The translations under genes were made by a program, and so were the position numbers. From Bryopsis sp. KO-2023 (lineage: Eukaryota; Chlorophyta; Ulvophyceae; Bryopsidales; Bryopsidaceae): DNA of 64,000 nt. Positions 2,616 through 19,502 of the stretch are shown in pieces; the first letter of the stretch is position 1; the number at the start of each line of letters is the position of its first letter. The stretch is from the NCBI GenBank assembly GCA_030272585.1, contig BSYQ01000017.1, positions 62,001 to 126,000 of the forward strand. The letters are read 5' to 3'. The notes beneath the pieces are model-generated. The model was not told where the DNA came from. It made no database searches and saw only the letters and a list, made by a program, of their open reading frames with translations.

Positions 2616-4911
2616 ACGACGTCTCCCAACATCGAGAAGGGGGGGTTTCCGTAAAACTTTCTGTGGGTCCACGCGAAAGACAAGGCATCCACGGCAAAAG
2701 CGCCGACGTCATGACTTTCCGAACAAAAAGGCAAAGGTTCGTCCGTTTCTGGATTCCTTTGCCGATTGAGGTTCGACGCAAATAAGTCGATCGTAAAAGG
2801 TCCCCATAATAACCACACGTAGTTGAACCACAGCGGGTTCAACTTGTAGTCCTCGGGGTGAAAAACCCGTGACTCTTCATCAGCACCCGAATCGATAATC
2901 GCCGCAGACCCAACGAACCCAATAGTCAAGGAAAAATCTCCAAGCAACTCGAGGGTAGCTAAGGCGAGCACGAGCAAGTTGATTCCATCGTTGAGGGAAG
3001 GAGACCCAGCGTTTTTCCAAAACCCACGAACACCTGTAGAATCTGTGCGAACTGAAACTCGTTTTCCGACAACATGAGGCCAAAAGGCGACAAGCGCCGC
3101 GAACACGCCCTTCAACTCTGTCCAAACGGAATCGGTTGCCGTAAGAGTCGGCCAACGTCCCTGACCGCGCAGTGGCGTCACAGTGTGTGGTGCTGTAAAA
3201 AGTCTGGCGCCCCATCCAAGTCCGGACGCATCGGTGTAAAGAACTACCCGGGGAGCCGTAGCTTCGACATTCATGCCGTTCAGTTTGTCTCTATTTGCCT
3301 GGAGAAACCTCAAGTCGTCACGCACCTCCGGTGAGGGTTGTAACAAGAAGGTGTTATTCCGGACCTCTTTCAACGAGATTGGCAATTTACTCAAGAGTTG
3401 AAACATCGACCTGGAAAAGAATCTAGCCAAAGGAATCGCGGGGAGGGTTGCGACTACGTAGCCGACCACACGCTCCGCCTGCTGTCCGGAAAAATGTTGC
3501 ATCCGCAGCAAGTTTCCGACTGCGTTTTCAATTTTCTCTAGTTTCTCCTGGCTGACAGAGACTCGCACCATTGGTTCCGACTCCACGATAAAGCCAAGGA
3601 ACTTAACCCGTTTCGTGGGAACCAGGTTAGACTTATCCATGTTTAGCCGCAAACCGAGCTCAAACAGATCGGCGAAAACAATTTTCTGCGTTGCAATGAC
3701 GTCTTCGAGAGACGCGTTGAAAAACAGGGCGTCATCGAAATACAAGACAACCCTGATTCCGAGGCTCCGCCATTTTCTGACGAGCGGCCGCAAAAGTTTT
3801 GTGTAAGCGAAAGGTGCGTTGGACAACCCGAAGGGCACTTGAATCGATAAACTCGTCGGTCGAGTTCGAAACAGCAGACGCGTTGTAAGTCCGGGTGAAG
3901 GGGTAATTGAAAATAGCCTTTCTTAAAATCAAAGCCCCAAACGAAATCCCCCGCGCGGAGCATTTCCTTTACGACTTTAATTCCTTCTAGGCGAAAGCTG
4001 GGAGCTTGAAGACATTCATTCACTGCTCGTGCGTCGAAGCAGAATCGAAATAAGTCAGGAGGCGGTTTCGGCGCTGTCTGTAGCGGCGATAAAAAAGCAA
4101 CCTCGTGTGGGTCGTCTTTGAGATGGGTAACGTCTTCGACGGCGCCCCACTCTAACATTCGTTTGACTTCTGTTCTGAGAAATTTCCATTCGGGATCGCT
4201 AAGTCGATACTGTTTGAGTTGTTTCTTTGCGATCAGAGTGTTTAGACCGTGCAGTTCCGCACGAAAACCATGTTTGACCCAACTAGGTACAGGCGAACCT
4301 GGAAAACACAAGGTTTTCCAGTGTTCGGAAAACCGACTAATGTCGCCGGTTTTGAATGGCCCGGAACGCAAAGGTAACTGATAATGAGTGGCCCACGTTT
4401 TAGCATCCGCGTATTCGACTGACGGTCGCAACGCTGGACGTTTGTTTAGGACACCGAGAAACGTCCCATGGATAGTCCGCCGCACCAGCAACCCATTGTG
4501 GCGAAACTGAAGGGAATTGACCAGGGACGTCAGTTTCTGGACAGTGACGTCTGTGTTCTTTTGTATGCCCGGAACTACCGTCGCTATAGGTGCGACATGC
4601 AGCTGGGGCACGCCGGGAACCAGCTTTCCACCGCAATGAACAGCAGTTGTTAAACACGGGAACTTACTTTTTCGAGGGCTGTCGGGTTCCCTGTCTGCAT
4701 TGCGCTTGTTGATTGTTGGCTGGGTTGTTAAATGCGCCAGTTTGCTCGCGTAAATGCGCGAGGTGGGGTTACTTTTGTGAATTCGTGTAAATGCGCGCAC
4801 TTCTTGTGGTTCCAACGGATTTTTTCGATCCCAATTCCGTTCAGAAACGAGTAAGATATGCCAATTTTTCTTCGCTGCACTCTCGTTTCTCAACGGAATC
4901 GGGCTCGACAA
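2600..4911 (-). pseudogene. DIRS-like retrotransposon reverse transcriptase/RNase H, frameshifted and truncated
   Basis: Two overlapping frames make one protein. Frame 4911 to about 3840 carries the first part of the RT (a phenylalanine-rich DFKKGYFQLPLH segment). Frame 3838-2600 carries PFGLSNAPF, the YFDD catalytic motif and a ribonuclease H segment beginning YTDASG, followed by the NPPF-type block seen in DIRS/tyrosine-recombinase retroelements. A single missing base near 3838 separates the frames. The end is cut by the GATCGG-rich insertion, and no tyrosine recombinase or methyltransferase domain is seen. The 4911 start is a TTG; the true 5' end is unclear. The family call is from motif memory, so a related Pat or Ngaro-like group is also possible. 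Confidence 0.75.
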
Positions 4912-4919
4912 AGCAAAAG

Positions 4920-5440
4920 CAATTTTTTTTTTTTTTCTATAGATATATTCATATATACATACCTTAAAATCTTAATGCATGTGTGTTTCAACTTTTCTAT
5001 TTGTGTTACTCTGTAAGCCTTTCTTCTACGATACTGTATCGTCGATGCAAAATCTTCAGTTATGAGGATAACGGTTCACTTTGATCATAACCGTTGCTGC
5101 ACGTAATCAACACCGAAGCCAAAATTTTCTTGAAGAAAAAGGGAAAGCAACGATAATCACATTTTTATCACCTCTAATGAAAACATAACATAAGATATGT
5201 TGCAACGGGGTACAACCATAGTATTTGGAATGCAAGACAAAAAAATATTACACCTGAAAGTATTATGAATAGATTATCATAGTAAAACTTGGTTCAAATC
5301 TTGTGAGCTTGATTATGTTCATTGACTTTGTATCAAGAGTTTATATTTTTAGGTCGCGCAGCTACGCGAAGTTACGTGTGAATCCAACATAAATGCTCGC
5401 AGTCACGCAGCCGCAGTCGCAGGCACGCAGCCGCAGTGAA
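4920..5440. other. AT-rich spacer between the two DIRS-like reading frames
   Basis: It starts with a run of T at 4922-4936 and is markedly AT-rich up to about 5350, then has short CGCAG-type repeats near 5400-5435. No reading frame or RNA gene is supported. Its base composition differs from both flanking element parts, so it may be a further insertion, but I see no clear ends. Confidence 0.4.
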
Positions 5441-5562: not shown

Positions 5563-5889
5563 CAGTCATGGGCTGCACAGGACGGGGTTCTGTACGGGTT
5601 CTGTGCACCCTGTGCAGGTCTGTCCTGTGCAGCGGAATTGCACAGGCCAGAACAGCACAGACTGTCTGTGCACGGAACAGGGTCGGACCTGTGCGCACAG
5701 GCGCACAGACTGCACAGAACAGCACAGAACAGCACAGAATCTGCACAGACTGTGCACAGAATCTGCACAGACCGTGCCTGTCCTGTGCTGTGCAGTCTGT
5801 GCGACTGTGCAGCACAGGTCCGACCCTGTCCTGTGCACAGACAGTCTGTCCTGTCCTGTCCTGTGCACAGGGGTCTCAGCCCATGTCTG
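5563..5889. mobile_element. 327-bp inverted-repeat element made of CTGTGC/GCACAG words
   Basis: Ends are CAGTCATGGGCTG (5563-5575) and CAGCCCATGTCTG (5877-5889), matching in inverted orientation at 12 of 13 positions. They are flanked by an exact 8-bp duplication TAGACAAC (5555-5562 and 5890-5897). The interior is almost wholly CTGTGC and its complement in both orientations. Leaving out the element plus one duplication copy restores a continuous frame in the surrounding gag-like ORF. An 8-bp duplication and CAG-starting ends fit a non-autonomous hAT-type (or KDZ-type) DNA element; no transposase is encoded. Confidence 0.85.
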
Positions 5890-8938: not shown

Positions 8939-11900
8939 TTAGGTTCGAGTTCTGCGTTGGGCCCTAGTCTTTTTCTTAGACTGGGTCACTTGTTTATTCT
9001 CCGGTTTGTTGGCTAAGTACTCCTTAAGCAAGTCCTGGGCATTGGCCAGGTGGCTTTCTGGCTCCCAGGTGGATTCCATCAAATCGTAGCCCTTCCAAAG
9101 GATCAGGTACTCCTTGCGAGTAGTGCCCCGATCTCTGAGGATGCGCTCGACCTCGAATTCGATGGTTCCATCCACTAGCTCCCCCTCTGGAGCGTCTATC
9201 TCTCGCTGATCGTCATCAAGCCGAGAGTAAGCCTTCAATTTCGACACATGGAAAGTTGGGTGGATTTTCCAGTGATCGGGAAGGTCAAGACGGTAGGCGA
9301 CAGCCCCAATTCGGCTAGCCACCCGGAAAGGTCCAACAAATCGCCGGCGGATTTTCGGTGGGATTTTCTGAAGTGAAGCAAGGGGAATATACTTGCTTTG
9401 TACCAGCACTTCATCGCCAACCTGAAAATCCACTTTTCTTCGACGTTTGTTTGCTGAGGTGCACATGCGGTTCTGTGCCTCTGCGTATTTCGCCTTAGCG
9501 TTTCGCATTTGGTCGTCCATTCGACGTACCATCTCAGCCGCCATTTCCGATTCATCGCCCGTCCGAACTCCCTTCCTGGCAACAACTATCTGCCCCATGT
9601 TCTGGCCATACAGAAGATGGGCTGGCGCGTAGCCTGTGGAGACATTCCGTGAATTATTTGCGGCAAATTCCGCGGTTGGCAAATAATCCACCCAACGGTC
9701 TGGGTACCGTTCCACATACGGACGCAGGAAATCCTCCAGCACCCGGATGGTGACTTCCGACTGCCCATCCGTTTGAGGATGGTATGCAGTGCTCATCCGG
9801 AGCTGGGTACCTAAAAGTTTGAAAAGGGAGGTCCAGAACAAACTTGTGAACCTTGGATCCCGATCCGAAACTATGATTTTAGGCAGCCCGTAGTGTTTGT
9901 ATATGTTCTCCACGAACAGCTTTGCGTATTCTGGCGCCGTGATAGTTTTGTTACAGGGTACGAACCTCGCATACTTCGTCAATCGGTCTACAAAGACAGC
10001 GATTGCTGTGAAGCCATGGGAAGACGGTAGGTCGGTAACCAAGTCCGTCGTGATCTGTTCCCATTTCTGGTCTGGGATAGGCAACGGCTGCAAAAGACCT
10101 TTCTGTCTTTGCAAGTCCGATTTGTTTAGTTGACAAGTTGGGCACGTTTTCACGTATGCCTTTACGGCTAACCCAACGCCTTTCCACCAGTAACTGCGGG
10201 TAAGTACTTCGGTCATGCGGTCTGCTCCAACATGACCTGCACTGGGAACGTCGTGATGCTCTTCCAGAATCCGTTTCTGGAAAGAAGCAGGGACCACAAG
10301 CAAACTAGGACCTGGGTCTGTCTTGGTATAATACAAGAACCCGTCGTCCAGCTTGTATTGCGGAGAAACCCCTCGTTCCATCCTTTCAAAGATAGGCTTG
10401 AGTTGTTCATCACTTCTCAAAGCCTCTTTCCACGCCTCCTTCTCTGCCACTTCCCAAGTGGAGAGGTTATTGAGCTGGTCTGGCGGACCAGGAAGGCTCC
10501 GGGATAACGCATCAGCCAATACATTGGCTTTCCCCTGGATATAGACGATTTTTGGACCTATGGATTGGAAAAACCCTGAGTTTAACCACCGGGTTTGGGT
10601 CCGCGACAACGTGCTCTGGTTCATGAAGTGGGTGATCGGTTTGTGGTCCGTCAACACCTTCACACCCCCATCGCATCCCTCAAGGTAGTGTCGCCACTGG
10701 GCTAAAGCATATGCTATTGCCCCCAGCTCCCGCTCATATGCGGAGTATCGCGTTTCAGCTGGTTTTAATCGTCTGGAAAGGTATGCAATTGGTTGCAAAC
10801 CTTTCCCGTGATCCTGGGTAAGAACCGCTCCATATGCAGTTCCAGATGCATCCGTTATTACGGTGTACTCCTTAGCCGGATCAGGAAGGAGTAAGATCGG
10901 TGCGCGGCTAATCCGATCCTTAAGTTCTTTATAGGCATTGCGTTGGTTCAGCCCCCATTCCCAAACAGTATCCTTCTTGGTTAGATCTGTCAAGGGACTC
11001 GCAATCCTAGCGAACTCAGGAATGAACTTACGATAGTAAGACACCATTCCCAGGAAACTTCGCACATCAGTGACCGAAGTTAACTCCTTCCATTGTTGAA
11101 TAGCCTTAACCTTATCCTGCATTGGTTGAAGGCCTTTTTCCGACAAATGATACCCCAGGTAGTCCGTCTCTGCTACCCCTACTTCGCACTTACTGGCTTT
11201 TGCGTACAACTTGTGTTTCCGCAACCGTTCAAAGACCAGTTTTAGGTGCTCGACGTGCTCTTCCACCGAGTTGGAAAAGACCAGGATGTCGTCGATAAAC
11301 ACCACTACAAACTCGTCAAGGAACTCCCCCAGCAAATCCTGAACCATGGTCTGGAACTGGGCTGGGCAGTTGGTCATTCCGAACGGACACACGAGAAACT
11401 CGAAATGTCCGTATCTCGTCCGGAATGCCGTCTTGGGAGTATCCTTGGGTCGAACGGGAAACTGCCAGTAGCCTGAGCGGAGGTCGATCTTCGTATAGAT
11501 CTTCGCTCTGGCGAGACGGTCCATTAACTCCTCAGGAAGAGGGAGTGGATACCTATTCTTTACCGTGAATTTGTTTATCCAACGGTAATCCACACACATT
11601 CTCAACCCTCCGTCTTTCTTGGGAACAAAGAGTATGGGTGCGCCCCAGGGACTCTCGGAGGGTCGGATCTTCCTTTGCTCGAGGAGATAATCCACCTGTG
11701 TCCTAACTTCGTCCAGCTCGGCTGGAGAGAGTTTGTACAAGGGACGGTGGATTGGGGTCATTTGTTCGTCCTCCAGGTCCACCTTAAATTCGTGGCCTTT
11801 TCTGACTGGAGGAACGCCGGGTGGTAAGTCTTTCGGGAACACATCCTTGAAACTTGTGAGGACAGCCTTGATTCTTGGGTCGAGACCCGAATGCATTACC

Positions 11901-13030
11901 TTTTCCACATCCGGCTGGAGATGAGCCGGTGTGGTTCCAGTAGCGTTCAAACGCTCTTCTGGAATTCCCGGATATGGATACTGCATGAGGTGTGCCATAT
12001 CGTCCGGGGTGGTTGGTCGCACAACCACAAGGTATGCCTGATCAACTTCTGGACTGTTCTTCACGAGCGAGAATAACTTCTTCGCTGAGACTGTGTCAAT
12101 AGCCGGTGCTAGGTGCTGTAAGTAGTCTGATGGTCGTTCCTTCATAGGAACAGTTGTCCATCCAGCACCCACTGGAACTTTGAGCGTGCCTGTTGCAAAG
12201 TCCAGTTTGGGATTGGTTTGCATCAACCAAGGAAGCCCTAGTATCATGTCATATGAAAGGTTTGGGAAGACGTCTGCGGAAAGGGTTGTAGTATAAGTAC
12301 CCATCCTGAGCTGCAAGTCTTCACACCGCCGATCAAGTGAACACAGGGTTCCGTCTGCCAAAGTGACTCCCTTTTTGCACTCGGTTGTTTCGAGTTTCAG
12401 TCTCGTGACTAGTTTCTTGGTAATGTAGTTCTCCGTTGCACCACAATCAACATAGGCGGAGATCGGTACTCCTCCTAATCTGGCTCGGATCTCATATCCC
12501 ATAAATTTCAAATGGTTAGGACCTCCTAGTGGTAACATACGCTCAGAAGGTGAATACTGACCTTCATCCACTTTTTGTCCTCTACCTGTTCCCTGAACAG
12601 GGGCTGCTGACTCGTCAGTTGGTGGTGAGCGAGTAGCAGGCTTATTTGCTTCCCTCGCGGGTTCCCTTCCTTCCGGACTTCGTTTCGTTCCTTGAGGCGG
12701 GAACGATACCGAATTCTCAGTTCCTTCAGGACTACCAAGGTCTCCATGAACAGAGTCGACAGGTTCCGAACTTGATTCCGAACTTGTCCTAGTAAGCGTG
12801 CTGCACTTACTGGATCGAGTGTCCAACTTAGCACTCATAATCGATCCCTCTGCACCTTGGGTAGCATTCTTTTCTATTTCCCCTTGTGCTCTTTTATTCA
12901 CTTCTGCATTTCGAGCTAACCTTTCTTTTCTAAGAAGTTTCTGGCGCTGCTTATATCTGTGACGGCGTGCCCTTCTGCGTTTCGCCGAACGAGTCTGGGC
13001 TCTGTTCATCCGGCTTTTTCGTTTAACCAT
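8939..13030 (-). CDS. pol: Ty3/Gypsy Pol polyprotein with C-terminal chromodomain
   Basis: The first ATG in frame is at 13030 and the stop is at 8939 (1363 residues). Domains in order: a basic N-terminus; an aspartic protease with DCGAT in place of the usual DSGAT/DTGAT (near residue 200); RT with the FIDD catalytic motif (near 590); RNase H with TDASGTAYGA (near 745); integrase with an N-terminal HHCC zinc site ending CPTC, then the D, D and E catalytic positions in TTDLV, SDRDPRF and DGQSE; and a chromodomain close to the C-terminus (EYLILWKGYD, then STWEPE). This order is that of chromoviruses. The frame is -1 relative to gag and overlaps its end, so Pol is made either by frameshifting or by restart. 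Confidence 0.95.
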   Translation of the reverse strand: MVKRKSRMNRAQTRSAKRRRARRHRYKQRQKLLRKERLARNAEVNKRAQGEIEKNATQGAEGSIMSAKLDTRSSKCSTLTRTSSESSSEPVDSVHGDLGSPEGTENSVSFPPQGTKRSPEGREPAREANKPATRSPPTDESAAPVQGTGRGQKVDEGQYSPSERMLPLGGPNHLKFMGYEIRARLGGVPISAYVDCGATENYITKKLVTRLKLETTECKKGVTLADGTLCSLDRRCEDLQLRMGTYTTTLSADVFPNLSYDMILGLPWLMQTNPKLDFATGTLKVPVGAGWTTVPMKERPSDYLQHLAPAIDTVSAKKLFSLVKNSPEVDQAYLVVVRPTTPDDMAHLMQYPYPGIPEERLNATGTTPAHLQPDVEKVMHSGLDPRIKAVLTSFKDVFPKDLPPGVPPVRKGHEFKVDLEDEQMTPIHRPLYKLSPAELDEVRTQVDYLLEQRKIRPSESPWGAPILFVPKKDGGLRMCVDYRWINKFTVKNRYPLPLPEELMDRLARAKIYTKIDLRSGYWQFPVRPKDTPKTAFRTRYGHFEFLVCPFGMTNCPAQFQTMVQDLLGEFLDEFVVVFIDDILVFSNSVEEHVEHLKLVFERLRKHKLYAKASKCEVGVAETDYLGYHLSEKGLQPMQDKVKAIQQWKELTSVTDVRSFLGMVSYYRKFIPEFARIASPLTDLTKKDTVWEWGLNQRNAYKELKDRISRAPILLLPDPAKEYTVITDASGTAYGAVLTQDHGKGLQPIAYLSRRLKPAETRYSAYERELGAIAYALAQWRHYLEGCDGGVKVLTDHKPITHFMNQSTLSRTQTRWLNSGFFQSIGPKIVYIQGKANVLADALSRSLPGPPDQLNNLSTWEVAEKEAWKEALRSDEQLKPIFERMERGVSPQYKLDDGFLYYTKTDPGPSLLVVPASFQKRILEEHHDVPSAGHVGADRMTEVLTRSYWWKGVGLAVKAYVKTCPTCQLNKSDLQRQKGLLQPLPIPDQKWEQITTDLVTDLPSSHGFTAIAVFVDRLTKYARFVPCNKTITAPEYAKLFVENIYKHYGLPKIIVSDRDPRFTSLFWTSLFKLLGTQLRMSTAYHPQTDGQSEVTIRVLEDFLRPYVERYPDRWVDYLPTAEFAANNSRNVSTGYAPAHLLYGQNMGQIVVARKGVRTGDESEMAAEMVRRMDDQMRNAKAKYAEAQNRMCTSANKRRRKVDFQVGDEVLVQSKYIPLASLQKIPPKIRRRFVGPFRVASRIGAVAYRLDLPDHWKIHPTFHVSKLKAYSRLDDDQREIDAPEGELVDGTIEFEVERILRDRGTTRKEYLILWKGYDLMESTWEPESHLANAQDLLKEYLANKPENKQVTQSKKKTRAQRRTRT

Positions 13031-15843
13031 TTCTTGAACTTTTCGCCCTCTGGACACTTACTTTGAATATGCCCAGTTTTTCCACACATATAGCATTTAG
13101 GATTTGCGCCTCCACCTCCACGTCCTTGATTCCTGCCACCACCTCGTCCGCGACCTCGGCCACCACCCCGTCCTCGACCTCGACCTTGGCCAATGTTTTG
13201 AGCCTGGTCTGGCTGAGGTTGCTGTTGGCCACCCATCTGGTTTGCTTTATCAGTCTGGGGTTGGTTTTGCTTCTTATTTTGGCCTCGGCCTTTACCTCCG
13301 CGCCACCGTCCGCGGCCACGAAAGTTTCCTCCTCCGGATGAGGCAATAGCATCAAGACGAGCCGCCGTCTGGATCGCCAACTCAATGCCGTGCGGCACTT
13401 GAGCCACAGTTTGTTGTTTGATATGGAACTTTAACCCGTCCACGAAGAAGAAGTATTGTTCTTCATCTGTCATGTTGGGGATCCTCAGTACCTGTTCTCG
13501 GAAAGCAACAATGTACTGATGCACTGACCCAGTCTGTTTCAGGTTCCGTAAGGAGCGCCTGGCTACATCAGACATTCTGGTGGGTTCAAATGCTTGGACC
13601 AGTTCCTCAACAAACTCAATCCAATTTGTGATTGGATGTCTTTTTCCTTCCCTTGTACGCAGATCCTGGACGTTTCGCCACTGAGCAGCAGCTCCGGTCA
13701 GGTTACTGCGGAAGAGCCTGAACCATACGCTCTCATCGATGTCCAAAGTCTGGCAATAGACCGTCATTTCTAGTTGCCAATCTCTGATCCATCGCTGACC
13801 ATCACCTGAGAAGGCCTTTGGGAAAGGAATACGAACGGATGACGGAATCCGTCCGTGGCGATCTTGCGGAGCAGCAAAGCCTTGGTTCGGGTCTGGAGGA
13901 CCCCCACCTCCACCTCCGCCACCTCCACCTCCACCTGGGTGGTACGGCCATCCACCACCCCCACCGCCACCTGGTCCGGAAAGGAAAGATCCCCCTCCAC
14001 TTCCAGGTGGTCCTCCTCCGCCTCCGCCTCCACCCCCAGGCCCACCTCCGGGTCCCCCTCCACCACCACCAGATCGATTTCCACCCTGTGGCTGGCTTGA
14101 TGGAGTTGAGGGATAAGAACCCCACCCGTAATACGGGTTACTTGCGGAAGGTGCTCCGTATTGGTTTACGGATTGTCCCAAACTTGGTTGGGTGCCTGGT
14201 TGGTTTCCTGGTTGGGTACCAGGTTGGGTGTTAAGAGCCGGGATTGGATAGAAGACAGACAGCGGAACTGTCGTCAGTGGTTGTGTTAACATGGATGTCG
14301 TTGGTGGTAACACACTCGTTACAGGGGCACTGAGTATGGGTCTGGCTGTGCCAAGTTGACCCGATTGGCCGAATGGTGCGCCCATTGCCATAGTTTGTGG
14401 CGGCGCAAGACTCCATGCAGTCCGTGTTCTTGGGGATGTGAATAATCCCCAGGAAGATGGAGAACCTCCACCCACGGAGTCTGCGACAGTTGTCGATGGG
14501 CTGCGACCACCCAATCCTCCTAACGTGGTTAGACCAGTAAAAGTACTCAGATCCGGAACAGGTGGTACCGGAAATGGGATACTGGTAAGAGGAGTGGATG
14601 ACACAAAAGGAACGCTTGTGGCTGCAGCTGTCGTGGCCGGCAAAGTGACCGTGCCAGTTCCTGCTCCCATCATACCCACTACAACTGGGTCCTGAGCCGG
14701 GACTCGAACTTTCTCCCGTTTTTTCCACGCACTCAGTGTTTCTTTGAACTTAGAATCAACATACTTGGATAGGTTACTTTCCAAAGTCTGCTGTTTCTCT
14801 GTCGCGTCTGATAGAAATTTCTCCATCAGTTGCATCGACCTGTGTCCTCCTGCAGTGTCATCAGAACTCACACTGCCTCGTTCCGCTCTTCTTTGTTTGC
14901 GTTGTTCTTCGGCTTGGTGTAAGTCCCGCAACACTTTTAGGCTCTGGCTTACCAGGCCTGAGAGTGTGTCTAGCTGGCCTTGGTGGTCGACTTGCTCGCA
15001 CCGAGACTCATCAGTAGCCCGAGCTAGGTTATCCAGCGTTGTCTGCTGTAGGCGCATACCTTCAGCAACCTTTGTCAGAGAGGCTTGCAGAGACATAATT
15101 TGTTTCTCCCTGAGCGCATTGTTTTGATCAACAGCTTCCGCTTGGGTACGGGCTGATTCCTGCATCCGATCGAGTCGCTCTTGCAGAATAGCCTCGTTGT
15201 CGAATTTACCCAACAGATTTCTGTCGATCCGCTCTGTGGACCTTATATTCTGTTCCAGCAATTTGTGCTGGTGGTCTAACAATTTCTGTTGTCTTTCTAT
15301 AGACTCAGTATTGTGTTTGACCAGCTTCTGGGCCTCCTTCCTGACATAGAGCACGAACTGCTCATATTCCTCTTTCAGGTCGCCTTTTAAGGTCGACTCT
15401 GCACGCTGAACCTGCTCGTGAACTTGTCCTTCCAGGTTTTGTGCGACCTCTTGCACATTCGAGGAGACAGCGGCATACACATGCTCAGCTGTGTCCCTAA
15501 GTTGTCCCTCGTCCACACCATGAACGTGCACCTCTTGCTGGTGGACGTTTATGTGCTGGTGTTCATGGTGAAGGATGTTGGTGACCTCTATTGTCGGGAC
15601 GTCCTCCATATCCTCATCATACTCCTCGTCCCCGGACTCTTCCGACTCTTGTTCAGAGTCTAAGTCTGCGTCCGGTTCCTCAACCTGGTCGGGTACATGT
15701 CTGTCCCACTGCAAATCATGTATTTGCTGCGCTGGTGGGTGCACCACATCTGGATAGACCACGGGAATTAGTTGGTTATCCACCACCTCTTCCTCCTCAG
15801 GAGGTGGAATAGGTGGTAGCTGTGGCGGCGTCTGGCCGGACAT
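13006..15843 (-). CDS. gag: Ty3/Gypsy Gag protein
   Basis: The ATG is at 15843 (MSGQTPP); the frame is open upstream but contains no ATG there. 945 residues. An acidic N-terminus is followed by a long Gln/Glu-rich coiled coil (about residues 110-330), a Thr/Pro/Ser-rich middle, a poly-Gly/Pro segment (about 590-660), the capsid-like region typical of Ty3 Gag (about 670-840), an Arg/Gly-rich basic stretch, and one CCHC zinc knuckle (CYMCGKTGH, then C) just before the end. It packages element RNA. Its last 25 nt (13030-13006) overlap the pol ATG frame. Confidence 0.93.
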   Translation of the reverse strand: MSGQTPPQLPPIPPPEEEEVVDNQLIPVVYPDVVHPPAQQIHDLQWDRHVPDQVEEPDADLDSEQESEESGDEEYDEDMEDVPTIEVTNILHHEHQHINVHQQEVHVHGVDEGQLRDTAEHVYAAVSSNVQEVAQNLEGQVHEQVQRAESTLKGDLKEEYEQFVLYVRKEAQKLVKHNTESIERQQKLLDHQHKLLEQNIRSTERIDRNLLGKFDNEAILQERLDRMQESARTQAEAVDQNNALREKQIMSLQASLTKVAEGMRLQQTTLDNLARATDESRCEQVDHQGQLDTLSGLVSQSLKVLRDLHQAEEQRKQRRAERGSVSSDDTAGGHRSMQLMEKFLSDATEKQQTLESNLSKYVDSKFKETLSAWKKREKVRVPAQDPVVVGMMGAGTGTVTLPATTAAATSVPFVSSTPLTSIPFPVPPVPDLSTFTGLTTLGGLGGRSPSTTVADSVGGGSPSSWGLFTSPRTRTAWSLAPPQTMAMGAPFGQSGQLGTARPILSAPVTSVLPPTTSMLTQPLTTVPLSVFYPIPALNTQPGTQPGNQPGTQPSLGQSVNQYGAPSASNPYYGWGSYPSTPSSQPQGGNRSGGGGGGPGGGPGGGGGGGGGPPGSGGGSFLSGPGGGGGGGWPYHPGGGGGGGGGGGGPPDPNQGFAAPQDRHGRIPSSVRIPFPKAFSGDGQRWIRDWQLEMTVYCQTLDIDESVWFRLFRSNLTGAAAQWRNVQDLRTREGKRHPITNWIEFVEELVQAFEPTRMSDVARRSLRNLKQTGSVHQYIVAFREQVLRIPNMTDEEQYFFFVDGLKFHIKQQTVAQVPHGIELAIQTAARLDAIASSGGGNFRGRGRWRGGKGRGQNKKQNQPQTDKANQMGGQQQPQPDQAQNIGQGRGRGRGGGRGRGRGGGRNQGRGGGGANPKCYMCGKTGHIQSKCPEGEKFKKWLNEKAG

Positions 15844-16568
15844 GCTTTTGTTTGAATTTCCTGGAATTTTGACGTAATAGGAGTGTGTCCGGAAAGTTTC
15901 CAAACTTTCTGGTGACTTGGATGCTAACTCGTTTCAGTTCTGGTTGCAATCCTAGTCGCTATCTTTTCTTGAACCTTACTAGGTCAGAAATAGATAGGAG
16001 TTTTACACTTGACAACGTCGGGTGTTACTTTCCCGTTCGCGTTCTGTCAGCCGACTAGGTTAGTACCTTGGCCGGTGATTCAGTCTACGACTAAAATGTA
16101 GAACTAGTCGTGACTCAGGCGGTGCGGTAACCGATTGCGCGCTGGAAAGAGTGACAATGAGTCACCTGCCAGAACGACTGTTTTTCGTGTTACTGGCAGA
16201 AGCGTCAGTCGACGGAAGTTAGTCGTTCCGGACGACGTTCTTTCCTACGCCGGTTCGCACTTTCAGTTGTTCGCCTGCGCGTTTCGGGTTTACGCCGATC
16301 GTTGCTCTCCTTGCACTGTTGTAGTGCTTTCGCCTTGTTTCCCTTTAGATCTACAGATCTGTAGGTTTCCAGAAATTCGTTCACTGGACTCCGATTCTTT
16401 TGCGACTTCGCCTGACGTTTTCGAACGACGACGCGAGCACGTCGTTCGAAAGATAGCTCTCCTCGCGACCCCTGGAACACAGAGTTCCAGATCTGGGGGA
16501 TTTAGTAATCCCTAGGGTCAGATCTTTGGGGGGGTTGCGCGAGTTCGCCTGTGGAGTGCGCCTGGCCT
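15844..16568 (-). other. Untranslated leader of the Ty3/Gypsy element
   Basis: About 725 bp between the primer-binding site and the gag ATG. There are short open frames but no supported gene. Confidence 0.5.
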
Positions 16569-16760: not shown

Positions 16761-17486
16761 CTGTTGGAACGCTTTGTCCATTTCTAGCGACGCAGCGGCT
16801 GCTGGTCCTAGAAAGGTTGAATGGATCAGCGGTGTAAGGCTCTCCTGTGTGGTATTTGTAGTGCAAATTTTGCACTCATACGTGCGAGTTCAGTTCTCAG
16901 TGACGAGTTTTCCCGGCGAATATCATTTTGCATAGCAGCAATGTCCGACACATGGGCGATGAGCTGAGAAAGTTGCTCGGCCGTGGCCGGAGCAGATACT
17001 TCTTCCTCGATATCATGAACCTCTGGAGTGGATTCTGGCATATTTGCGCGAGTTGGGGAAATTCTTGACCAAAACCCCGTGGACATCAACACGTGAGACC
17101 GAGATAGCAGTGGGCATACTATGGATACAGTCGGCAATTATCGGCCTGCTATAAATAGGTCTGAACGGGGTCGGATCGGGATCGGATTTTCACCAACGTC
17201 TATTACTAAGTGATACGAAAAAAGTCGGCTTTTTTCCGATTTTTTTTTTCCGATCATTATCGGCCCGATCATCGGAGATCGGCGCCATGATCGGACCGAC
17301 TAATCGGGATCGGCGTCCGACCCGATTAAAGGTCGGCTCACCCGATCCCGACCCCGATCCGATCTGACTTTGCGGCCGTGATCGGCAGGATCGGCCGATC
17401 AAAAAGTCGGTACGATCTTATGATCGGAGCGTTAGTCGGAGTCGTCCGATCATGATCGGCATGAAAGGCGCGAAGTCGGTGAATTT

Positions 17487-17955
17487 GGGAATTTACCGAT
17501 TTTATCGGATTTTCCGATCATCCACCGACCCCGATCCGATCATGATCGGAATGTCGGATGACGTACAAAGTCACCCCCGCAGGGTCCCCAGAACCCAAGG
17601 GAACCGAGTAGGACTCGAACACCGTACCGCACGGTATCAAGTCATCTACACTGAGCGCTAAGCCAAGTGGACCACGATGAATCTGTGGTTGTTGCAATAA
17701 TATACCCTAATTTCACAGAATTACAAACAGATTAAGGTATATCATCGCAACAGCCACAAAATCATCGTGGTCCACTTGGCTTAGTGCTCAGTGTAGATGA
17801 CTTGATACCGTGCGGTACGGTGTTCGAGTCCCACTCGGTTCCCTTGGGTTCTGGGGACCCTGTGGGGGTGACTTTGTACGTCATCCGACATTCCGATCAT
17901 GATCGGATCGGGGTCGGTGGATGATCGGAAAATCCGATAAAATCGGTAAATTCCC
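17487..17955. repeat. Near-perfect 220-bp inverted repeat (hairpin)
   Basis: The left arm 17487-17706 and right arm 17736-17955 are reverse complements at roughly 95% of positions by eye, with a 29-nt loop. Each arm contains GATCGG words, then a GGGACCCTG-GGGGGTGAC segment and a tRNA-like box A/box B region. A transcript through it would fold into a long duplex. Confidence 0.85.
17762..17890 (+). repeat. tRNA-derived SINE-like core (right copy; an inverted copy lies in the left arm)
   Basis: It has a box A-like TGGCTTAGTGC (17777-17787) and a box B-like GTTCGAGTCCC (17822-17832), the internal promoter elements of RNA polymerase III genes, followed by a tail CTTGGGTTCTGGGGACCC. It lacks a good acceptor stem, so it is not a functional tRNA gene. 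A related core with the same upstream AAATCATCGTG and a similar tail is at 19189-19303. Confidence 0.6.
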
Positions 17956-18742
17956 GATCTAATCGGAAAACGCCGATCCCGATCCCGATCCGATCTGGTT
18001 TCAAAGGTAGAATTGGATGATCGGCCGTTACTTATCGGAAAAGTCGGACCGATCTATTACAGTTGGGCCGATTGTATCGGTACATCGGCGATGTCGGACC
18101 AATTTAGTCGGGCGCCGACAACATCGGCGCTTTCTGAGGCCGACTTTTATCGGTTATCGGAAAAGTCGGACGCCGACATATCGGTGTCGGATCCATAGTA
18201 TGGCAGTGGGCGTGAACGGGAGAGTATTGCAGCTGGACTGGCAGCTTGCGACAGATGGCCTTGGATTGACTTGGCTGAGGTGAAATGGAAGTTGAGTTGG
18301 GACCGAAAGAGTCGCCAGAAACAACGGGCTTACAACCGTCCCGACGAAGGTCAACGAACTGTGTACTTCCAGGTTGCTGGACTTTTGCCAGGTTAACTGG
18401 ACTGGCTGGAAAATAAGGTCAACTTGGCCTGAGTGTGCACAGGGAAAAACTCTCACAAAGTCTCCAGGGAATTCGATATCCAAGCTGGAATTAGTGAATG
18501 ACAACACTATGAATTTGTGAAGTCGATATGTGAACTCAGCTTAAGGAGCTGGAAGGCTCCAAATTGCCAGACTGTAGCCACTGAGGCAAAGCCAGCCTCT
18601 GTAAGAGTTGCAGGGTTCCTGGGAACCACTATCTGTGTAAGGAAATGCCAGGAAGTCGACTGGACTTGGTAACCTGTTTGGACAGGAACTTTGCCTCAAG
18701 TGAGGACTGCAACCCTTGGGGGGTTGCTAAGAAAGGAATAGT

Positions 18743-18868
18743 ATTGCCGGTAATGCCGGACTTGGTGCCAGGAACGCTGGACTTTATTCCGGTAATGCCA
18801 GACGGGTGCCAGGAACGCTGGACTTGATGCCGGTAATGCCGGACTTAGTGCCAGGAACGCTGGACTGA
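18743..18868. repeat. Minisatellite of about 41 bp, three copies
   Basis: Three imperfect copies of a unit containing GCCGGTAATGCCGGACTTG then GTGCCAGGAACGCTGGACTT. The surrounding region 18210-19018 holds more degenerate GCCAGG/CTGGACTT words but no supported gene. Confidence 0.7.
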
Positions 18869-19028
18869 ATGCCTGAAACCTAGCTGGTTGCCAAGGAAGC
18901 GGACTTAGGAACAGAGGTAGGTACGGGTAGCCGGGACGTAGTAGATGGCGGAACCGGACTCCAAGAATGGCGGAGACGCTAGCCAGGGGTAGTGGACGGT
19001 GTTGTAGCGGTTGGTTGTTGACTGGGAA

Positions 19029-19492
19029 CAGAGATAGGACTTGGGCCAAATTTTTGGTCCGGCTACGGTCCGGTCCGGTTACGGTCGGTTTACGGTTCCG
19101 TATTACGGCCGTAACTCCGTACCGTAACCGGAGTAATATGTTGTTTTTACGGTACGGAACAGGTACGGTATAGCTACGGTAGCCCCTAAATCATCGTGAA
19201 GTAGTGTGGTTCAGTGCTAAAGCGTTAGGCTGTAGTCTGTAAGGTCGTGGGTTCGAATCCCCTTGGGTTCCTTTGGGTTCTCGGGACCCTGCGGGGGTTA
19301 CTATTTACGGTTTACGGTTGGTACGGTGGTTACGGTCGGTACGGTCCGGTACCGGAGCAGTACGGAGTGGTACGGTGGTCCGGTTCCGAGCACGAAAACC
19401 ACTCCGGTCCGGACCGTAACTACCGTAACCGTAAGTGACCGGAGTGGGGTTACGGTACGGTTTACGGTACCGTAACCGGAAAGTCCTATCTC
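19029..19492. mobile_element. 464-bp ACGGTA-rich inverted-repeat element with tRNA-like core
   Basis: Ends are CAGAGATAGGACTT (19029-19042) and AAGTCCTATCTCTG (19481-19494), perfect 14-bp inverted repeats, with ACTGGGAA on both outer sides (19021-19028 and 19495-19502) as an 8-bp duplication. The two bases at 19493-19494 can be assigned to element or flank. The arms consist of TACGGT/ACCGTA words in both orientations; the centre (19189-19303) is a tRNA-like core. It has the same plan as the element at 17115 but uses a different word. No coding capacity. Confidence 0.85.
19189..19303 (+). repeat. tRNA-derived SINE-like core
   Basis: Box A-like TGGTTCAGTGC (19207-19217), box B-like GGTTCGAATCC (19250-19260), then CTTGGGTTC and GGGACCCTGCGGGGGTTAC. 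It shares its leader and tail with the cores inside the element at 17115. Confidence 0.6.
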
Positions 19493-19502
19493 TGACTGGG
19501 AA

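Follow-up and report, generated by a model that had tools for sequence, protein, structure and literature searches.

The stretch of Bryopsis sp. KO-2023 DNA analysed here, hereafter the window (64,000 nucleotides of contig BSYQ01000017.1; C17:62001-126000), contained three non-autonomous DNA transposons, E1, E2, and E3, each with an exact 8-bp target site duplication (TSD) and a private word repeated along its arms. E1 and E2 are probably Ds2-like non-autonomous hAT elements, in which the arms derive from the ends of a parent and a tRNA-like core replaces the transposase gene. The cores sat mid-element, where the parent has its transposase gene. A search of the genome (91 Mb, 28 contigs) showed two more families with this arrangement outside the window: X, which goes with hAT E, and T3, which goes with hAT C. 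Single or paired tRNA-derived cores, bearing box A and box B motifs of the type used by RNA polymerase III (Pol III), were present in E1, E2, X, and T3. The original prediction, made from this DNA alone, had treated the arrangement as a pattern without a name; as Ds2-like hAT derivatives with a shared core resembling a short interspersed nuclear element (SINE), the elements fall within known kinds.

Elements of the window

When the window was scanned blind for exact 8-bp duplications with terminal inverted repeats (TIRs) that agreed in at least 10 of 11 positions, five matches were obtained, namely E1, E2, E3, and two within E1. E1 (17115-18202) had a perfect 12-bp TIR, CATACTATGGAT, and the TSD GCAGTGGG, and E2 (19029-19494) had a perfect 14-bp TIR, CAGAGATAGGACTT, and the TSD ACTGGGAA. 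These were the repeats and duplications originally predicted, except that E2 ended two bases beyond the predicted position 19492. A third, coreless element with the word CTGTGC had been predicted at 5563-5889, and E3 was recovered there with a 13-bp TIR containing one mismatch (CAGTCATGGGCTG / CAGACATGGGCTG) and the TSD TAGACAAC.

When the words were compared with 200 dinucleotide shuffles, the top hexamer was enriched in each element: CCGATC occurred 31 times in E1 (shuffle maximum 11), ACCGTA 19 times in E2 (maximum 8), and CTGTGC 26 times in E3 (maximum 9). Hexamers within one mismatch of the word covered 45%, 43%, and 65% of the arms of E1, E2, and E3, respectively, against means of 19%, 22%, and 27% in 100 shuffles; the arrays were thus real, whereas the predicted coverage of almost the whole arm was too high. 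Each word belonged to a TIR group and not, as first proposed, to each copy, since E1, the related E1b, the locus L087, and T3 formed one TIR group with the common word GATCGG.

The centre of E1 was a 225-bp inverted repeat, 96% complementary with arms 19 bp apart, and consisted of two cores in inverted orientation, the second of which had been overlooked. The cores of E1 and E2 were related, as predicted, and aligned along their length. The predicted box A and box B motifs also held, as their geometry occurred three times on the two strands of the 64-kb window, and all three were these cores. X and T3 likewise contained inverted core pairs. The features of the elements are given below, with the strand in parentheses where one applies and the basis after the semicolon.

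17107..17114, left TSD of E1, GCAGTGGG; blind scan
17115..18202, E1, non-autonomous hAT element, 1088 bp; exact, differing 8-bp duplications at 8/8 fetched loci
17115..17126 (+), left TIR of E1, CATACTATGGAT; blind scan
17127..17554, left arm of E1, GATCGG/CCGATC array; word count, cassette limit from alignment
17487..17711 (+), left arm of the central 225-bp inverted repeat of E1, 96% complementary
17555..17887, 333-bp cassette in E1, two inverted tRNA-like cores with a common centre; 88% to the centre of X (L083), no alignment outside on the plus strand at E up to 1e-6
17611..17620 (-), box B-like GTTCGAGTCC, left core of E1
17655..17665 (-), box A-like TGGCTTAGCGC, left core of E1, reading outward (leftward)
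17731..17955 (-), right arm of the central inverted repeat of E1
17777..17787 (+), box A-like TGGCTTAGTGC, right core of E1, reading outward (rightward)
17822..17831 (+), box B-like GTTCGAGTCC, right core of E1
17888..18190, right arm of E1, GATCGG array; last 308 bp of E1 77% identical to the hAT G 5' end (L101)
18191..18202 (-), right TIR of E1; blind scan
18203..18210, right TSD of E1, GCAGTGGG; blind scan
19021..19028, left TSD of E2, ACTGGGAA; blind scan
19029..19494, E2, non-autonomous hAT element, 466 bp; 14/40 scored copies identical over full length, window copy included
19029..19132, 5' end of E2, ACCGTA array; 93% identical to the hAT A 3' end
19188..19312 (+), tRNA-like core of E2, single
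19207..19217 (+), box A-like TGGTTCAGTGC, E2 core
19251..19260 (+), box B-like GTTCGAATCC, E2 core; weak RF00005 match spans 19207-19263
19313..19480, right arm of E2, ACCGTA array; word count
19481..19494 (-), right TIR of E2; blind scan
19495..19502, right TSD of E2, ACTGGGAA; blind scan
5563..5889, E3, non-autonomous element, coreless, TIR CAGWCATGGGCTG, word CTGTGC, TSD TAGACAAC

Genomic copies and hAT parents

The E1 TIR was present at 431 sites in the genome, the E2 TIR at 790, the E3 TIR at 461, and the X TIR, CAGAGCTGGGCAGTA, at 80, against 1, 0, 0, and 0 sites for the reversed controls, respectively. Among the best 40 of 500 candidates, at least 8 further full-length copies of E1 (93-98% identity) were found together with at least 23 full- or near-full-length copies of E1b, which were 79-80% identical to E1 and differed from it by one base in the TIR; as 40 candidates were scored, these counts are lower bounds. 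The best 40 of 569 E2 candidates were all full length with a rounded identity of 99 or 100%, and 14 of them, including that of the window, were identical. The mean divergence of 0.5% among 26 E2 copies is a biased figure, taken from the best-scoring matches.

E1 was flanked by exact and mutually different 8-bp duplications at all eight loci, counting that of the window. Both TIRs of E2 were found in 29 of the 30 best-scoring loci (window copy included), and exact duplications in 27 of these 29, all 27 different; two duplications were mismatched, and one locus was without a TIR. Further copies with 8-bp duplications, whose absence would have told against the original prediction, therefore exist. 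Such duplications were also present at three of five X loci, at the single T3 locus, and, for E3, at the window copy and two of three long TIR pairs; the X-like loci L085 and L088, of the five fetched, showed no TIR pair with a duplication. Retroposition of the elements was rejected on the basis of the 8-bp TSDs and TIRs. Three E2 cores of like orientation at C4:2140101, 2141430, and 2142768, spaced at about 1.33 kb, resembled a tandem duplication of an insertion.

The hAT families were collected with PF05699, the C-terminal hAT dimerisation domain (150 matches scored of 185 candidates in the genome), and were grouped by score and frame length under our own letters A-I. The domain was matched at 5.9e-19 in hAT A and 7.8e-16 in hAT C. 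PF14372 gave no match in this genome nor in control genomes and was hence uninformative. Of the 28 hAT A loci (L050-L077), 24 had the exact E2 TIR downstream of the transposase domain; the TIR carried two mismatches in one and was absent from the fetched stretch in three. The hAT A end before this TIR was dense in CCGTAA/ACCGTA and was 93% identical to bases 1-104 of E2 and 97% identical to the last 105 bp of the E2-type copy L090. In L051, a second ACGG-rich array (TTTTTTACGG repeats, about positions 170-365) was located upstream of the hAT A coding exons and is probably intronic, so that hAT A has word-like repeats internally as well as terminally.

On contigs C1 and C2, the exact E1 TIR was located 2.8-3.1 kb upstream of all nine family-B and both family-G domains and flanked both sides of all three family-C domains, one of which was a lower-scoring copy assigned to C. 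It was found by four of the five domains left without a family and by none of the eight domains of families D, E, F, H, and I. It was also near two of five hAT A loci, at positions fitting separate T3 insertions. The nearest parent found for E1 was hAT G (L101), the 5' end of which was aligned with the last 308 bp of E1.

The hAT C element L079 was 6850 bp long, with both TIRs and the exact duplication ACGACGAC. Each of its ends carried GATCGG/CGATCA arrays, and it contained a hAT frame of 839 aa. Its protein matched Hermes (4.6e-8, best stretch 753-827) and contained the CxxH motif as CGTH at 364. In family C only, the stretches DGW, TD, and ASSASVERMFS were assigned to what we take to be the catalytic triad. 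On the minus strand of L079, at 3965-5023, hAT C had more open frames beyond the transposase, possibly an accessory gene; a 351-aa minus-strand frame gave no Pfam match at 0.01.

When both ends were compared, T3 (L089) proved to be composed of 265 bp of the hAT C 5' end (95%) and 379 bp of the hAT C 3' end (87%) with an inverted core pair between them; both ends thus came from a single autonomous element, and the interior was unrelated. For E1, E2, and X, a single end was compared. The first 298 bp of X (L083) were the 3' end of hAT E (95%), which carried the X word CGTTAC, and the X TIR was found 0.81-0.86 kb beyond five of seven hAT-E-like domains. A TIR was therefore shared with a transposase-coding element by E2 (with A), by the E1 group (with B, C, and G), and by X (with E).

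These ends indicate that TIR and word travel together and that parent and derivative share both in E1, E2, X, and T3. There is good support for the original proposal linking the arrays to a transposase, as resident hAT families bear the same TIR and word as the matching small elements. Because of the shared ends and the 8-bp duplications, the standard reading is that the parental transposases would move E1, E2, X, and T3. The private word is probably the binding site of the parental transposase, a prediction under which each array would tune its element to one transposase.

No transposase-coding element with an E3-type TIR has been found so far. L080 (C1:9717540-9722690), a 5.07-kb pair of E3 TIRs, was rejected as the parent and is an E3 copy with an inserted element; the insert had long direct repeats and two large open frames and is apparently a long terminal repeat retrotransposon. 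E3-type TIRs with exact 8-bp duplications also occurred 17.9 kb apart at C2:247839-265747 (GCTGGGAG) and 10.5 kb apart at C2:3295053-3305542 (ATGATGAG), with ends in L096-L099, and these elements may be the autonomous parent of E3 or carriers of nested insertions. The duplication of a third long pair, C2:107313-131686, did not match.

The tRNA-like core

A box A candidate was located 44-45 nt before box B in all 12 cores measured. The boxes of E2 were intact in 30 of the 30 best-scoring loci, and those of E1 in 14 of 16 cores. Outside the boxes, the likeness to tRNA was slight. ARAGORN found no tRNA in the window, none in the three window cores in an ordinary run, and poor structures for two of the three in a relaxed setting. 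Rfam gave no match at the gathering threshold, and a permissive search (E up to 1) of eight loci returned 33 matches without a tRNA among them, nearly all to miRNA hairpin models and all below gathering scores. Compared with shuffles, the folding energy was ordinary for the E2 core (z -0.41) and lower for the right E1 core (z -2.48). By sequence, the tRNA derivation of the core shows mainly in the promoter boxes, and the tRNA fold is largely lost.

Patterns for the core were found genome-wide at 242 sites for leader and tail, 480 for the tail alone, and 191 for the type-3 core, with no matches to reversed-pattern controls. The tail of type 3 showed a short similarity to those of types 1 and 2 (CCTGCGGG-GGTGACTT), equalled in 3 and 11 of 1000 shuffles, so that kinship of the tails is suggestive only. 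The halves of the type-3 pair (L089 374-441 and 524-591) held two different middle segments, recurrent in most listed copies; a few pairs were mixed in these segments, suggesting conversion between the halves.

Placement relative to exact TIRs was tested on C1-C2 among the matches listed. Type-3 cores (n = 32) lay between two TIRs in 28 cases, beside one in four, and without a TIR in none. For type 2 (n = 18; C1 and the covered part of C2), 14 were between TIRs and four beside one. For type 1 (n = 23), eight were between TIRs and 10 beside one; of the five without an exact TIR within 1.3 kb, three were in E1b elements, and the remaining pair, C2:1442113 and 1442302, had an X TIR 2.7 kb away. 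The 41 tails on C1 comprised 32 between two TIRs, three in E1b, five beside one TIR, and one, C1:5875925, with no TIR nearby. Cores outside the TIRs with duplications of their own, which would speak against the original prediction, were thus sought on C1, where 40 of 41 tails were in or beside elements and one was TIR-less. No clear free copy with its own TSD and a retroposon-type 3' tail was found on C1, with that one tail of 41 unexplained.

Conversely, 17 of 18 short E1-TIR pairs on C1-C2 contained a core (15 a type-3 core, one a type-1 tail, and one an E1 copy by full-length match), and one of 515 bp was coreless. The exact tail was present in 27 of 33 short E2-TIR pairs on C1 and not in six; L090, a 465-bp copy outside the leader and tail pattern, had a core whose leader was altered. 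In the parent stretches, BLAST matches to the core were at chance level only (nine loci), and the box geometry occurred in none of the 28 hAT A loci and none of five others (L079, L081, and L100-L102).

When E1b was compared with X (plus strand, E up to 1e-6), a 333-bp double core was common to both at 96% identity, and nothing else aligned. E1 and X were 88% identical over this block. The cassette of E1b is therefore closer to that of X than that of E1 is, despite the arms shared by E1b and E1. One block in two families with unrelated arms points to exchange of the cassette between families. The palindrome extended past the cassette into the private array of each family, which simple insertion does not explain; conversion between the arms might.

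In tRNA-derived SINEs, a tRNA-related head containing boxes A and B precedes a conserved tail, and the cores shared this organization. They differed from such SINEs in having no clear free copies on C1 and in being mobilised within elements with TIRs and 8-bp TSDs.

Origin and role of the core

Maize Ac transposase is described as binding AAACGG repeats, Ds2 as Ac ends with filler, and Ds1 elements as having one filler in common (PMC3260210). E1 and E2 resemble Ac and Ds2 as presented there in having hAT ends of about 200 bp with repeated transposase-binding hexamers, an 8-bp TSD, and unrelated filler. They differ from those maize Ds elements in having as filler a tRNA-like core, frequently an inverted pair, that carries Pol III-type boxes and was found across several hAT lineages differing in TIR and word. 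MER6 is similarly a miniature inverted-repeat transposable element (MITE) with autonomous-element ends around a SINE-derived centre (V-SINE domain; PMC6887750); it is described as mariner-derived and without the tRNA-related head of the SINE, whereas the elements here are hAT and kept the tRNA head and promoter boxes. Kat1 and Hermes are hAT transposases with short subterminal repeats at their ends, and the Kat1 study speculates that such repeats enhance activity (PMC4763223). The arrays here were denser than the six exact TGAATT copies given there, and their word varied by TIR group in one genome.

The core would have come from a SINE-like or tRNA-derived source and been taken up as filler when the gap repair that follows excision was interrupted, and would later have moved between families by template switching or conversion; taken together, this origin, capture, and transfer are moderately likely. 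Once in place, the core would recruit TFIIIC and Pol III, and transcription in E1, X, and T3 would run outward through the arrays. Such recruitment and transcription, predicted from the boxes, is tentative and somewhat doubtful.

Several observations weigh against this account of the elements and their cores. The only argument for capture by gap repair is the analogy with maize Ds2. With an identity of only 77%, hAT G is a relative of the E1 parent and not its direct source, and the parent comparison covered only the right end of E1 and the left ends of E2 and X. The tRNA model of Rfam barely detected the E2 core (15.3 bits, E 0.76; gathering 29), and the tRNA covariance model found nothing in L089. 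An extra box A candidate at 55 nt in T3 and at 49 nt in E2 means that the choice of box A was not unique there. No TTTT terminator followed the core in the window copy of E2 or in X, and one T3 core of the pair also lacked it; in the other cores it lay 40-389 nt past box B, so that a neat short transcript is not predicted. Finally, the E3 group is abundant (461 TIR sites) and both E3 copies read, those of the window and L080, were coreless; the core is thus not needed for spread.

The same E3 copies favour a view in which the cores are fossil SINE insertions in ancestral hAT derivatives, amplified by chance and without a role; it accepts the hAT anatomy and the spread between families by recombination and denies only that the core does anything. 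The largely lost tRNA fold also fits, as does MER6, a mariner MITE with a SINE domain (PMC6887750). However, at least three hAT lineages (A, E, and the CATACTATGGAT group) had core-bearing families linked to them, each with a box A candidate 44-45 nt before box B; cores were present in 17 of 18 short E1-TIR pairs on C1-C2 and, as judged by the exact tail, in 27 of the 33 E2-TIR pairs on C1, and the source SINE was not seen on C1. The case for such roleless cores is close to evenly balanced. A chance SINE insertion into a single copy was rejected, since cores recur across families. If the inverted pairs instead formed long hairpins diced into small RNAs that act on the hAT family or other copies, the 19-bp loop of the E1 repeat, the paired cores of X and T3, and the miRNA-type matches of the permissive Rfam search would be accounted for; but E2, whose TIR sites are the most numerous, has only one core and lacks a long central hairpin, and the outward orientation of paired cores means that transcripts started at their own promoters would run away from the centre and not across it. 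A hairpin source is improbable.

The sharp limits of the 333-bp block common to E1b and X could also mark a cassette that is itself mobile and inserts into MITE centres. By eye, no direct duplication flanked the block, and the cassette as an independent mobile element was rejected on this ground; the palindrome continued into the private arms of each family, and only one of the 41 C1 tails was without a TIR nearby. Such mobility is improbable. Low-complexity arms might finally suggest simple-sequence expansion with coincidental TIRs and TSDs, but the hundreds of TIR sites against control values of 0 or 1, the exact and mutually different duplications (27 of 29 E2 and 8 of 8 E1 loci), and word counts far above shuffles exclude it, and its probability is practically nil.

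With E1 and E2 read as Ds2-like hAT derivatives, the recurrence of the core in several lineages, its conserved boxes, and the exchange of the cassette would argue for some role. The core could be a putative working module, repeatedly acquired and exchanged because it raises the mobility of non-autonomous hAT elements, although this is unlikely. It might do so, for instance, by keeping the element unsilenced and free of nucleosomes, by making replication forks pause at the core, or through transcription of the binding-site arrays. If so, these would be Pol III-assisted DNA transposons in which the private words serve transposase recognition and an interchangeable part serves the host machinery. 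The recurrence and exchange of the cassette tie MITE amplification to tRNA-gene machinery in a testable way. No Pol III-type promoter cassette recurring or exchanged among DNA transposons was found described in the open-licence papers searched. One genome with several hAT lineages, each with its own TIR, subterminal word, and matching derivatives, provides a natural data set for the divergence of transposase-DNA specificity and the licensing of small elements to one transposase.

Elsewhere in the window, two long adjacent retrotransposon frames of 1372 and 975 aa were located on the minus strand at 8939-15933, with relatives named reverse transcriptase or retrotransposon. A hAT domain in a 725-aa frame (C17:61568-61759) ended about 240 bases before the start of the window, so that the first kilobases of the window may include the end of that element.

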